From Marinobacter sp. es.042 (GTDB taxonomy: Bacteria > Pseudomonadota > Gammaproteobacteria > Pseudomonadales > Oleiphilaceae): a DNA stretch of 64,000 nt. The notes beneath the pieces were generated by a model. The model was not told the DNA's origin. It searched no databases and worked only from the letters and a program-made list of their open reading frames with translations. Every line of letters begins with the position of its first letter. The stretch's first letter is position 1. Position numbers and translations under genes: made by a program. This document shows positions 1 through 26,151 of this stretch, piece after piece. Where the stretch lies: contig NZ_LT897781.1 in assembly GCF_900188315.1 (NCBI RefSeq), forward strand, positions 2,108,001 through 2,172,000. The letters run 5' to 3'.

Positions 1-1389
1 ATTCGGAAAGCAGGCCACACCAATACTCGCCGTCACCTGCAACCTCAGTCGGCCCACCTCGAAGGTGCGGGACAGGTTGCCGGCCAGCGACACACAGGCT
101 TTTTCAACATCGTCGAGATTGGTGTTCGGGGTCAAAATGGCGTACTCGTCGCCACCGAGCCGGGCAAGATCGTCCCGGCTTTCAACCAGTTCGGCGAGCC
201 GACGACCGAACTCCAGAAGGGTTTCATCGCCGGTCTCCAGCCCAAAATGGTCATTGATGCCTTTAAAGTTATCAATGTTGATCACAATGAGGCAGAACGG
301 TTTTCTATCCGGAACCAGGTTGTCGAGGCGGTCCAGCAGCCCATTGCGATTCAACAGCCCGGTCAGATCATCGTGCCGTGACAGGTAGGAAAGCTCCAGA
401 CGCCGCTTCTTCTCAGCGTTGTCGATAATCCGGAACCCTTTGTAGAAAACGATTCCGACAACCAGGAACACTAGCAGATACTGCAACAGGGATTGGAGAA
501 ACTCCCGGTAAAGCGGAGCGAACCGGGTTTCCGAGATGGACCACAACTGGTAACGGGCGTTGAAGACAGCAGCCGTCAGATAATCCTCACCCTGGCGTCG
601 GGTTCGGATAACCACCGATTCACTGCCCTGCATGACCGCCTCTACGCTCAGACCGAGCGCCTTTTCGAACGCTGCCCGATTCGTCTCCCTCTGATCCATC
701 GGTATCCGGATTTGCGAATACTGTTGCGGGCCAACGCCGTCAGCCGACATGAACTGAACATAGCCATCGGTTTCCCGGAACAGCATTACGGTGTCAGAGT
801 CGTCGTCATGCAGGGTCTTGCCAAAAACCGAACCACGGCCATCAAGCCGCATGCCGGCTGTCATGACGGCAACGACTTCCCCAGTCGGGGACCGTATCGC
901 TTTCCGGATCGGTATAACCCACGCGCCCAGGGCGTCTACGAAATAGGTCCGGCCAACGACCATTGCATCGGAAGACAGTGCTCCCAGAAAACTGTCACGG
1001 GTCTCGGGATCGGTTCTCAGATTTGGCAGACTCGACAGATCGAGGTTGGTGCTGACACGAACCAGCGTACCGTCCGGCCTGGCCAACCCGAAGCCCACAA
1101 GCATGGGGTTGGCGGCGAGGATGCTGTCGAGCAAGGGGATCTGCCGACTGCCTGACAGGAGATTGTCCTGACGGAGCAACTCTCGGCCAATTACATCGAG
1201 AACCAGCTCCTGGGTTCGCAGGATGCTGTCGACTGACTGAGCAACCAACTCGACACGGGCGGTATGGTAAAGCTTCTCGTCTGAAATAAGGCCCTGCCAA
1301 CGAAAGAACAGAACGGTACTGAGGAGCAACACGCCACCGAGGAGGATAAGAGCGAAGAGTGTCCAAAGATTACGTTTGAGAATCGCCAA
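1..1389 (-). CDS. Membrane-bound diguanylate cyclase (GGDEF), 3' end beyond window
   Basis: Probably makes cyclic di-GMP from GTP at the inner membrane. Read on the minus strand, it has a first membrane helix (about residues 10-25), a periplasmic sensor region of roughly 270 residues like double-Cache domains, a second helix near residue 320, and a GGDEF domain whose signature reads GGDEY at about residue 412. The tail of the domain (ASIGVACF) runs off the left edge. There is no ATG after the in-frame stop at 1434-1432. I chose TTG at 1389 (product begins MAILKRNLW) because a weak GGA lies upstream and it keeps the first helix; the start is uncertain. Tyr for Phe in the signature is conservative, so activity is likely but unproven. 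Confidence 0.8.
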   Translation of the reverse strand, partial: MAILKRNLWTLFALILLGGVLLLSTVLFFRWQGLISDEKLYHTARVELVAQSVDSILRTQELVLDVIGRELLRQDNLLSGSRQIPLLDSILAANPMLVGFGLARPDGTLVRVSTNLDLSSLPNLRTDPETRDSFLGALSSDAMVVGRTYFVDALGAWVIPIRKAIRSPTGEVVAVMTAGMRLDGRGSVFGKTLHDDDSDTVMLFRETDGYVQFMSADGVGPQQYSQIRIPMDQRETNRAAFEKALGLSVEAVMQGSESVVIRTRRQGEDYLTAAVFNARYQLWSISETRFAPLYREFLQSLLQYLLVFLVVGIVFYKGFRIIDNAEKKRRLELSYLSRHDDLTGLLNRNGLLDRLDNLVPDRKPFCLIVINIDNFKGINDHFGLETGDETLLEFGRRLAELVESRDDLARLGGDEYAILTPNTNLDDVEKACVSLAGNLSRTFEVGRLRLQVTASIGVACFPN

Positions 1390-1615
1390 AAGCAGTTCCA
1401 GAAATTCAGGAGGTTGAACAACGGCTTTACGTCAGTATACGGGAGAGCCTGAAAAGCGCATTACTATTTACCGTTCATTTGTAGGTTGTTAATTCCCATG
1501 GAACTAAATGCGTCGATTCGTGACAACAAAGTAATTCCGCGTCCATCAGCGATCAGGGTATCGGGTGTACTATTCTGAAAAGCTGAACCGCAGTCGATCT
1601 TACAGGAGTGTGTTT

Positions 1616-3347: not shown

Positions 3348-3455
3348 GAGGCATTGGGGCCGTCGTTCCAAAAATGTAGAGGGCCAGGGATGGCCCGAAA
3401 CAAGCGCACATGGATGTGCTCGTAGCGGTTTTTGGAACGACGGCCTCAATGCCTC
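3348..3455 (+). repeat. Conserved-core hairpin element, copy A
   Basis: Arms at 3348-3374 and 3429-3455 are inverted complements over 26 of 27 positions. The 54-base core (3375-3428) holds two small hairpins: GGGCCA/TGGCCC around GGGA, and GCACAT/ATGTGC around GG. The core resembles those at 14884-14938 and 24847-24899, but the arms do not resemble the other arms. It lies in the divergent region between the phosphatase and yaiI genes, so it is not downstream of any gene and is unlikely to be a simple terminator. Confidence 0.85.
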
Positions 3456-14859: not shown

Positions 14860-14962
14860 TGGGCGGGTCATCCCTTTGCCAGACCGTGGAGGGCCAGGGA
14901 TGGCCCGACCGAGCCTACATGGAAGTATTTACGGCGTGTCTGGCAAAGGGATGACCCGCCCA
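14860..14962 (+). repeat. Conserved-core hairpin element, copy B
   Basis: Arms 14860-14883 and 14939-14962 pair perfectly over 24 bases. The core (14884-14938) carries the GGGCCA/TGGCCC hairpin around GGGA and a TAC/GTA hairpin around ATGGAA. It lies 36 bases after the stop of the GST-like gene and 55 bases before the Tat reductase start. No T-run follows on either strand. Confidence 0.85.
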
Positions 14963-23948: not shown

Positions 23949-24767
23949 TCAGGCCTTGCTGCCACCCATCTTGCTCATCCAGCGCTTGCTTTCCTGATGC
24001 ATCAGCCAATCGAAAGCCTTGGGCGCATGGCGCTTGAGCATCCACATACGGCGCTCCTTGGCATGGGGCAATACCCAGAAGCTCTTGTTTTCCACCGACC
24101 GGAAAATATCCTCGGCCACATCCTCGGCGGTCACCGTGGACCGCTTCATCAGCTTGTTCACATTCTGCTGAATGCCGGGGATATCTGAACGCATGCTGCT
24201 GGTCAGATTGGTCTGGAAAAACGCCGGGCACACGCAGCTCACATGAATACCCGCATCCCGAAGCTCCTGGCTCAGGGTTTCAGACAGGGCAATCACCCCG
24301 GCCTTGGTCACATTGTAGCTATCCATCAACGGCGCCAGCATGAGCCCGGCCATGGAAGCCACATTCACGAACGCCCCGGAGCCCTGCTGCTTGAACTGCG
24401 GCGTGAACGCCTTACAGCCGCGAACCACACCCAGCACGTTGATATCGAGAATCCACTCCCAATCCGCCATGGTGGTATCTTCAATGGAACCGGCCGAAGC
24501 AACACCGGCGTTGTTCACCACCACATCGACGCCGCCCCATTTCTTCACGAGATCATCGCGGACCTTTTCGAAATCGGTCAGGCGTCGAACATCGCACTCG
24601 ACGAAATAACCTTCGCCTCCGGCCGCATTAATCTCTTTCTCGACGCCAACACCTTGCTCCGGATTAATGTCGCCGATGCAAACTTTGGCGCCTTCTTTGG
24701 CATAACGCAGTGCTATGGCGCGGCCAAGTCCGCTCGCGCCGCCCGTGATGAATACTCTTTGTGTCAT
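23949..24767 (-). CDS. SDR-family oxidoreductase (second of two)
   Basis: A 272-residue short-chain dehydrogenase. Cofactor motif TGGASGLG near residue 8, NNAG near 88, catalytic Ser in VASMAG and YNVTK near 155. Asp in CIGDIN after the second strand points to NAD. The C-terminal extension (LMKRSTVTAEDVAEDIF and following) is the type seen in SDRs that act on bulky or acyl substrates. It lies between the phosphotransferase and acyl-CoA dehydrogenase genes, with repeat copy C on its upstream side. Confidence 0.87.
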   Translation of the reverse strand: MTQRVFITGGASGLGRAIALRYAKEGAKVCIGDINPEQGVGVEKEINAAGGEGYFVECDVRRLTDFEKVRDDLVKKWGGVDVVVNNAGVASAGSIEDTTMADWEWILDINVLGVVRGCKAFTPQFKQQGSGAFVNVASMAGLMLAPLMDSYNVTKAGVIALSETLSQELRDAGIHVSCVCPAFFQTNLTSSMRSDIPGIQQNVNKLMKRSTVTAEDVAEDIFRSVENKSFWVLPHAKERRMWMLKRHAPKAFDWLMHQESKRWMSKMGGSKA

Positions 24768-24823
24768 GGTGATTCCCGTTGTATCGGATTTTTAGTCAGC
24801 TTAACTCACAGGTATACGAGAGT

Positions 24824-24922
24824 GGGCGGGGCTGGCCTTCTGAAACTGTGCGGAGCCATGGATGGCGTAGCCAAGCGTACATGGACGTATTCACAGCGTG
24901 TTTCAGAAGGCCAGCCCCGCCC
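24824..24922 (+). repeat. Conserved-core hairpin element, copy C
   Basis: Arms 24824-24846 and 24900-24922 pair perfectly over 23 bases. The core (24847-24899) has GCCA/TGGC around TGGA and TAC/GTA around ATGGAC. It lies 17 bases after the acyl-CoA dehydrogenase stop and 56 bases before the SDR start, inside what should be one operon. It has the same orientation as copies A and B. Confidence 0.85.
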
Positions 24923-24939
24923 GCTCCGCCACCGAGCTA

Positions 24940-26151
24940 TCAGTTCTTGTACTTTCGCAATTCAAGACGGGCCACCATAGCCCGATGCACCTCATCCGGG
25001 CCATCCGCCAGGCGTAAAACACGGGCATAGGCAAACAGCTGTGTCAGCGGGAAGTCGTCATCGCTGACCCCGGCACCACCGTGAATCTGAATGGCCTGAT
25101 CCACAATGGTCTGCAGCATGGATGGAATCACCGCCTTGATCATGGAGACCTCCTGAAGCGCCCCCATGATGCCCTTGGTATCCAGTGCCCAGGCGCATTT
25201 CAGCGTGAGCAGACGGGCCTGCTCAATGGCCATGCGGGCATTGGCAATGATATCCGGATTGCCGCCCAGCTTGGCGATCGGCCGTCCGAAGGCCTCACGA
25301 GTCGTTGCCCGCTTGATCAGAATCTCCAGCGTGCGCTCTGCCGCACCGATCGCCCGCATGCAGTGGTGCACTCGGCCCGGCCCAAGACGGCCCTGGGCAA
25401 TCTCGAATCCGCGGCCCGGGCCGGCGATGAATGCGCTCTTGGGCAGCCGGACGTTGTCAAAAAGCACCTCGCCATGGCCATAGGGCTCATCATATTCACC
25501 GAATACCGGCAGCATACGCTCGATCTTGACGCCAGGCGTGTCCAGCGGCACCAGCACCATGGAATGTCGGCGATGCTTATGGGCGTCCGGATCGGTAAGT
25601 CCCATGAATATGGCAACCTTGCAATCCGGGTGTCCGATACCTGTGCTCCACCACTTGCGACCGTTCAGAACCACTTCGTCGCCTTCAACAACGGCCGTCG
25701 CCTCCATATTGGTGGCATCGGAAGAGGCAACCGCCGGCTCGGTCATACAGAAGGCGGAGCGGATCTCGCCGCTCAGCAGACGCGGTAACCACTCGGCTTT
25801 TTGCTCTTCAGAGCCATAGTGGATCAATACTTCCATATTGCCGGTGTCTGGCGCGTTGCAGTTGAAAATCTCCGGAGCAATGAAGCTGCGGCCGGTTTCC
25901 TCGGCAATCAGGGCGTAGTCGGAGTTCAACAGGCCACAGCCGTATTTTTCGTCCGGGAAGAACATATTCCAGAGGCCCTGGGCTTTGGCTTTTTCCTTCA
26001 GCTCCCGGATGACTGGCAGCACAACCCAGCGGTTATCCAGTGAAGCAAGCTCCTTGTGGTACTGCTCTTCAATGGGAAAAATCTCATCCTTCATGAACTG
26101 CTTCACGCGGTTGAGGTAATCCTGGCCTTTCTCGGAAATATTGAAATCCAT
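24940..26151 (-). CDS. ACAD10/11-like acyl-CoA dehydrogenase
   Basis: A 403-residue FAD enzyme with the usual three domains (helical about 1-125, beta 126-240, helical 241-403). Flavin/substrate signatures are CMTEPAVASSDATN and WWSTGIGHPDCK. Near the C-terminus, the position where classic acyl-CoA dehydrogenases have the catalytic Glu (EGT) reads LADGPDEVHR, with Asp, as in ACAD10/11 proteins. Together with the phosphotransferase this suggests a dephosphorylating or isomerising role on 4-hydroxyacyl-CoA rather than simple beta-oxidation. First gene of the leftward set; the LysR gene is divergent. Confidence 0.88.
   Translation of the reverse strand: MDFNISEKGQDYLNRVKQFMKDEIFPIEEQYHKELASLDNRWVVLPVIRELKEKAKAQGLWNMFFPDEKYGCGLLNSDYALIAEETGRSFIAPEIFNCNAPDTGNMEVLIHYGSEEQKAEWLPRLLSGEIRSAFCMTEPAVASSDATNMEATAVVEGDEVVLNGRKWWSTGIGHPDCKVAIFMGLTDPDAHKHRRHSMVLVPLDTPGVKIERMLPVFGEYDEPYGHGEVLFDNVRLPKSAFIAGPGRGFEIAQGRLGPGRVHHCMRAIGAAERTLEILIKRATTREAFGRPIAKLGGNPDIIANARMAIEQARLLTLKCAWALDTKGIMGALQEVSMIKAVIPSMLQTIVDQAIQIHGGAGVSDDDFPLTQLFAYARVLRLADGPDEVHRAMVARLELRKYKN

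Follow-up and report, generated by a model that had tools for sequence, protein, structure and literature searches.

Many dispersed copies of a TwoAYGGAY-class element with predicted CsrA-binding loops in Marinobacter

The genome of Marinobacter sp. es.042 carries some 82 copies of an element in which a long, almost perfectly matched stem presents two small hairpins, both with GGA in their loops. It is probable, judging from sequence, that the elements are TwoAYGGAY-class RNAs (Rfam RF01731) which bind CsrA, are dispersed in many copies and would buffer or titrate the protein. The RNA class and the CsrA hypothesis are already known; what is added here, as far as the searches show, is the copy number, the dispersed spread, the strand polarity and the outward-facing geometry of neighbouring pairs.

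Three elements in the window

The window, which is the whole analysed stretch of 64,000 nucleotides, contains the elements A (3348-3455), B (14860-14962) and C (24820-24926), all on the + strand and in the same orientation, each made of an arm of 25-27 nt, a core of 53-54 nt and a matching arm. The initial annotation had described three elements with a shared core and complementary arms, and they are found where it placed them, with arms that are slightly longer than it gave. In element A the 5' arm (3348..3374, 27 nt) pairs at 26 of 27 positions with the 3' arm (3429..3455). Hairpin 1 of this element (3381..3396) holds the loop AGGGAT at 3386-3391, which is closed by a C-G pair and has the form CANGGANG, and hairpin 2 (3406..3419) holds the loop ATGGAT at 3410-3415, also closed by C-G. 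Element B has a 5' arm at 14860..14884 and a 3' arm at 14938..14962 that match at 25/25 positions. Its hairpin 1 (14891..14906) has the loop AGGGAT at 14896-14901, and its hairpin 2 (14916..14927, loop ATGGAA at 14919-14924) is placed from the alignment and is absent from B's own minimum-energy fold.

Element C, with arms at 24820..24846 and 24900..24926 (26/27 pairs), has both hairpins assigned from the alignment, its own minimum-energy fold pairing the core otherwise; these are hairpin 1 at 24855..24866, with the loop ATGGAT at 24858-24863, and hairpin 2 at 24878..24889, with the loop ATGGAC at 24881-24886. Its neighbours, both on the - strand, are a short-chain dehydrogenase gene (23949..24767) and an acyl-CoA dehydrogenase gene (24940..26151), the stop codon of which is 13 bp from the 3' arm. 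RNA folding gave z-scores of -9.0, -9.6 and -8.0 for A, B and C, and none of 200 shuffles of each was equally stable. A finder based on structure only, requiring two ANGGA motifs and arms, returned exactly A, B and C from the window and nothing from the reversed window, and in 17 loci, each roughly 20 kb long, it returned 88 elements forward versus 7 in a reversed control that retains palindromic arms.

Copy number and spread

The host genome is a single contig of 3,936,136 bases. A genome-wide search with a covariance model, which had been proposed along with the initial annotation, gave 84 matches at E<=1 with model R2, 82 of these at E<=1e-3, in a scan that scored 150 of 2,596 first-look candidates. 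A pattern scan allowing up to three mismatches found 67 matches (0 and 1 in controls), and a looser pattern combined with an arm requirement on the fetched host loci gave a set of 64 elements, none of which lies within a gene as judged by a hexamer-based gene caller.

In a pattern search of named genomes at least 119 stretches were found, and all 80 among the matches listed belong to Marinobacter. The covariance model reaches further: in an order-level sample, 115 of 293 genomes and 57 of 118 genera have R2 matches at E<=1e-3, and in a class-level sample 69 of 369 genomes and 62 of 272 genera have them at E<=1e-5, the copies per genome being lower bounds with 16 and 13 candidates scored per genome, respectively. 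No element match was seen in plasmids and phages (blastn with one query) or in viral contigs (one exact degenerate pattern) at the sensitivities used.

Stem, core and covariation

Across the family the arms span 21-31 bp. In a model-free comparison that counts G.U, an arm pairs with its own partner at 0.991 of positions versus 0.597 between the arms of different copies, and for the outer arms alone the values are 0.987 and 0.501. The initial view that the arms have no common sequence stands for the outer part, where the outermost 12 nt in 54 of the 64 host copies have a mean pairwise identity of 0.398 against 0.370 when shuffled, but has to be given up for the inner 10 nt, which follow a common pattern, roughly YTYCC-RRR-A-M, with an identity of 0.62. 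Host cores of 54 nt (n=34) have a mean identity of 0.839.

Covariation was assessed on an alignment of 113 copies, 108 of them distinct, which leans toward the structure because it was fitted to the model. In this alignment 94.6% of cells are paired versus 74.4% in shuffles, two-sided changes occur in 499 cells versus 157.6, and the covariation score is 0.585 against 0.220 for shuffles and at most 0.176 when the partner is slid by 1-3 columns. Two of the five measures are not clearly above the shuffles, namely the number of pairs changed on both sides (15 versus 13.9, reached by 87 of 500 shuffles) and the number of further pair types (45 versus 40.5, reached by 10 of 500); of 105 sequences, 60 do not form the outermost pair of hairpin 1. 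The earlier proposal of a folded core with two NGGA loops under selection on structure is borne out by covariation well above both shuffles and slid controls, and the outcome it had named as contrary, covariance no better than in shuffled cores, was not seen. The core also occurs in a long form, with roughly 80 bp of additional hairpins built into hairpin 2, in the host near 558551-558619 and at the M. flavimaris site orthologous to 560780.

The loops and CsrA

Both hairpin loops read CANGGANG in 106 of the 113 aligned copies, and the variation is almost wholly at the two N positions; the match is partly favoured by the collection of these copies with ANGGA-aware searches. Hairpin 1 lay outside the first search pattern and nevertheless has this loop in 64 of 64 host copies, while hairpin 2 has it in 63 of 64, the remaining copy having ATGAAT. 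The commonest single form of each loop is ATGGAT, with position 2 often G or A, a departure from strict AYGGAY. The published CsrA/RsmE consensus is given as (A/U)CANGGANG(U/A) (PMC6692469). One pair further out from the CANGGANG motif, 59 of 63 hairpins 2 have A-U but 53 of 63 hairpins 1 have C-G, which means that the outer letters of the consensus are often missing from hairpin 1. The two GGA motifs are separated by 22-40 nt, with a median of 23 (298 copies), and a CsrA dimer is described as bridging sites 10-63 nt apart, with an optimum above 18 (PMC7652899).

The host genome has one CsrA match, a protein of 65 amino acids with a canonical sequence, for which the best PDB match is 1vpz_A, with 2jpp, 2mf0 and others matching too. 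CsrA is present in 36 of 40 element-bearing genomes versus 35 of 37 element-free genomes, and co-occurrence is therefore uninformative as evidence. One genome of the class-level sample (G505, 98% complete) has eight element matches and no CsrA match.

Which strand is active

Arm mismatches are strongly polar. Read on the strand that carries GGA, the 64 host copies have 37 G.U and 2 A.C mismatches (binomial 2.8e-9), 74 copies in relatives, taken from 14 loci, have 35 and 3, and a pool of 298 copies, which includes the host and the relatives' sets and in which related copies are not independent, has 164 and 11. The bias does not depend on the direction of the flanking genes, the host G.U:A.C counts by gene context being 11:0, 11:2, 7:0, 7:0 and 1:0. 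A palindrome that mattered only as double-stranded DNA should have G.T and A.C mismatches in near-equal number, and the excess of G.U over A.C indicates that the GGA strand acts as a single-stranded nucleic acid. The simplest reading is that this nucleic acid is RNA; the same tolerance of G.U would arise in single-stranded DNA as well. A DNA-only palindrome, shaped by conversion or drift, is argued against by the strand-specific mismatches.

Gene context and neighbouring pairs

Context was recorded for 252 distinct elements at 173 loci, 241 of them with flanking genes, a set that includes orthologous copies so that the counts are not independent. Convergent genes flank 73 of the 241 elements and divergent genes 27, and of those between tandem genes, 71 have GGA on the sense strand and 70 on the antisense strand. 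Among spacers of at least 100 bp in those loci, 81 separate convergent genes, 396 tandem genes and 186 divergent genes. The near equality of the two tandem orientations means that many copies are not simply parts of mRNAs, and a plain mRNA 3' UTR element finds no support in it.

Neighbouring elements less than 400 bp apart are outward-facing in 30 of 30 pairs of the 252-element set, as they are in 9 of 9 pairs among the 64 host copies. The 17 loci outside the genus hold two outward pairs and one inward pair, the latter at 1297-1404 (+) and 1485-1590 (-) of locus L127, from a genome of another family; it is the sole exception seen, and the outward rule is thus not universal. The sequence AGGCTA lies downstream of the element in 14 of 64 host copies versus 0.5 expected. 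In addition, CAGGCTAGG or close forms are observed about 15-30 nt past the 3' arm (e.g. L009, L016), often at outward-facing pairs, and a REP-like repeat of the GTAGGTCGGGTTA...TAACCCGAC type is located between the paired elements of some outward-facing pairs (L004, L009, L016).

Orthologous sites and the origin of the arms

A host stretch of 440 kb, containing 27 elements, was compared with M. flavimaris LMG 23834 and Marinobacter sp. BW6. In M. flavimaris 20 of the 27 sites have an element in the same orientation and one has it flipped, two lack flanks in the compared stretch and four have none detected, of which two are not absences, the element at 442296 being present with mismatched arms and that at 560780 with a longer core. 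In BW6 there are 17 counterparts in the same orientation and 10 sites with none detected. The arms of shared elements have changed mainly in matched fashion: in the three pairwise comparisons of these genomes, which overlap and ignore indels, there are 70, 100 and 83 two-sided changes that keep Watson-Crick pairing versus 26, 21 and 18 one-sided changes, along with 2, 5 and 5 other double changes and 441, 333 and 239 unchanged pairs. At host position 445258, for example, one C-G pair is replaced by T-A in BW6 with flanks that are closely similar, and the arms at 405715, 479235 and 435026 differ along with the adjacent intergenic sequence. Shared sites and matched arm change together indicate that most elements are old residents. 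They speak against the origin suggested in the initial annotation, where new arms were to come from insertion of the core into hairpin loops or from fold-back copying.

Empty orthologous sites had been put forward as the place where such an insertion would be visible. Ten host sites where the element is missing from one or both relatives were examined; at none of them does the stretch present only in the host coincide with the ends of the element, and none displays an insertion of core and arms. At 500924 the limits of the stretch fall within the arms, at 515202/515354 and 529074 it extends from one member of a pair into the other, and at 368463, 520207 and 699812 it reaches beyond the element into the flanks; these stretches look as deletions would leave them. 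No clear element remnant is left at 368463 in both relatives and at 699812 in BW6, and insertion may have occurred at these two. An unsystematic look at the aligned absent sites revealed no target duplication. Insertion into hairpins, or fold-back, is not supported even at host site 500924, which comes closest to what the initial annotation predicted: both relatives keep outer pieces of the arms, and a short direct repeat, GAG, at the ends of the missing stretch means that a simple deletion explains the reduced site.

Standard and long cores have been swapped between two neighbouring loci in the host relative to M. flavimaris, an exchange that points to recombination between copies. At one site between convergent genes (host 375795, M. 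flavimaris 95506) the element is in opposite orientation, as if the core had been flipped between its arms, and the arms differ too.

Relation to TwoAYGGAY and other known systems

The element, which the initial annotation did not recognise, belongs to a family covered by Rfam RF01731, TwoAYGGAY. At gathering cut-offs Rfam gave no match in the window and none in 20 loci; at a relaxed threshold TwoAYGGAY matches one of eight further loci with 35.4 bits. Over element C there is a full-length match (24815..24931, + strand) that scores 26.6 bits, where the cut-off is 43. Some vertebrate microRNA models score equally well or better at element C (best 38 bits, cut-off 72), which is put down to the long hairpin. 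When 38 genomes were searched with RF01731, 24 had matches at E<=1e-3 and 7 passed the cut-off, compared with none of 14 control genomes. The host is among the 38 and not among the 7, its best two copies scoring 41.4 and 35.7 bits, below the cut-off of 43, and coinciding with R2 matches. Four of the above-cut-off loci were fetched, of which three, from related Marinobacter (L264, L266, L267), pass again and belong to the element family by R2 and the finder, while the fourth (L265), from another family, falls below the cut-off in the repeat Rfam scan and has a weak R2 match of 23.9 bits.

In architecture the elements resemble TwoAYGGAY (clan CL00106) in having two adjacent hairpins, with loops of C-AYGGAY-G type, carried by an outer stem that is long and little conserved, and in giving full-length matches to it. 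The terminal loops have the wider form ANGGAN, those of element C fitting AYGGAY itself, and the outer stem is defined by its own pairing rather than by shared sequence. Unlike TwoAYGGAY as modelled, the window copies score below the cut-off, the arms are near-perfect and unique to each copy, and there are about 82 copies in the host. The 2010 discovery paper tabulates the motif for human gut, gamma-Proteobacteria and Clostridiales (PMC2864571), and CsrA binding was proposed in 2014 for TwoAYGGAY, then of unknown function (PMC4333381). No description of TwoAYGGAY as a high-copy repeat was recognised in the literature searched, although one may exist.

With CsrB/CsrC and RsmX/RsmY/RsmZ the elements share GGA in hairpin loops and a predicted binding and sequestration of CsrA/RsmA, but each of those is described as a dedicated small RNA with several sites (PMC7652899), as opposed to many dispersed copies with two sites. 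A search for RsmZ (RF00166) in 12 genomes, the host among them, found none, and none of the 14 controls reached the cut-off of that family either. A search with a GacA box pattern gave no signal, with 38 matches versus 60 in the control. REP/BIME sequences are dispersed palindromic intergenic repeats, frequently placed at gene 3' ends and arranged as inverted pairs. The present elements are likewise dispersed, palindromic and intergenic, but are longer and differ in their CsrA-type loops, strand-specific tolerance of G.U and unique arms.

Mechanism and alternatives

Each element would be a structured RNA of the TwoAYGGAY class, made from the strand that carries GGA, in which the long and locally unique stem presents two hairpins with CANGGANG loops about 23 nt apart. 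The loops are predicted sites for the dimeric CsrA/RsmA, at a spacing that may let one dimer hold both, and the host copies jointly would form a distributed CsrA-binding set that buffers or titrates the protein. Structure, covariation, strand polarity, loop match, copy number and spread are seen in the sequence itself, and transcription of the elements, binding of CsrA and titration are what we infer. Titration alone leaves the outward-facing neighbouring pairs unexplained, and the joint role of the copies may be titration or local control of RNA ends.

Such local control is rather unlikely, yet is the strongest of the alternatives. Here the element would be read by transcripts heading to the end of the neighbouring gene, and predicted CsrA binding would gate termination, for instance by Rho at a T-poor stretch past the 3' arm, or stabilise the 3' end, thereby checking antisense or read-through RNA. 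The enrichment between convergent genes and the outward-facing pairs both fit this, as does a T content on the GGA strand of 16% in the first 20 nt past the 3' arm of host copies (14-19% across four contexts), and CsrA-gated Rho termination is known at pgaA (PMC7652899). Over 30 nt in the wider set, however, T ranges from 12 to 24% by group, so that the low-T bias is weak in single copies; the only terminator-like site near element C lies outside it, with none at C itself, and copies in tandem spacers have no preferred orientation. That the elements are self-standing small RNA genes with their own promoters, a many-copy counterpart of RsmX/RsmY/RsmZ, is less probable again. A promoter-like motif precedes 46 of 241 elements versus 26 and 18 in control windows (38 versus 26 and 23 on the opposite strand), and an excess of TATA, TATC and TAAC is seen 16-20 nt before the 5' arm, mainly in the convergent context (22 of 73 versus 8 and 5). 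No -35 element is conspicuous there, though, and the other contexts are little enriched, with 7 of 71 versus 4 and 5 for tandem GGA-sense, 13 of 70 versus 11 and 3 for tandem GGA-antisense and 4 of 27 versus 3 and 5 for divergent copies. No sigma-70 promoter was found around element C, and a sigma-70 promoter belonging to each element is, with this modest enrichment, weak at best.

Two further explanations treat the element as DNA or as a by-product of it, and both are very improbable. A mobile DNA element acting as a single-stranded hairpin, like the REP/RAYT and attC families, and taking its matched arms from the target on insertion, would account for copies that are dispersed, intergenic and strand-asymmetric, for the flipped core at one orthologous site and for the two sites that lack a clear remnant. 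It sits badly with sites that are mostly common to more than one species, with host-only stretches that mismatch the element ends and in several cases end inside arms or span element pairs, with the lack of plasmid, phage or viral-contig matches at the sensitivities used, and with loops whose conservation follows a protein-RNA motif. Marginally less probable still is a functionless repeat whose copies stay similar only through recombination among themselves, with palindromes restored by template switching, for which the exchange of standard and long cores and the matched change of arms could be cited; template switching or conversion, expected to be strand-blind, would not give the pooled excess of G.U over A.C, nor does it yield loops fixed at CANGGANG.

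The preferred reading of a dispersed CsrA-binding RNA can be extended, more tentatively and with some doubt, to a distributed CsrA buffer of about eighty two-site decoys. Free CsrA would then be set by total transcription activity and not by a few dedicated small RNAs; the cores would be kept alike by exchange between copies, the stems rewritten locally under strand-specific selection on RNA, and convergent genes would come to hold outward-facing pairs.

The number of copies in one genome, together with matches in 115 of the 293 genomes of the order-level sample, makes the CsrA hypothesis testable in marine bacteria. It also raises the question of whether CsrA is titrated by dispersed sites, beyond the dedicated small RNAs, and the element family itself provides a natural record of matched arm evolution.
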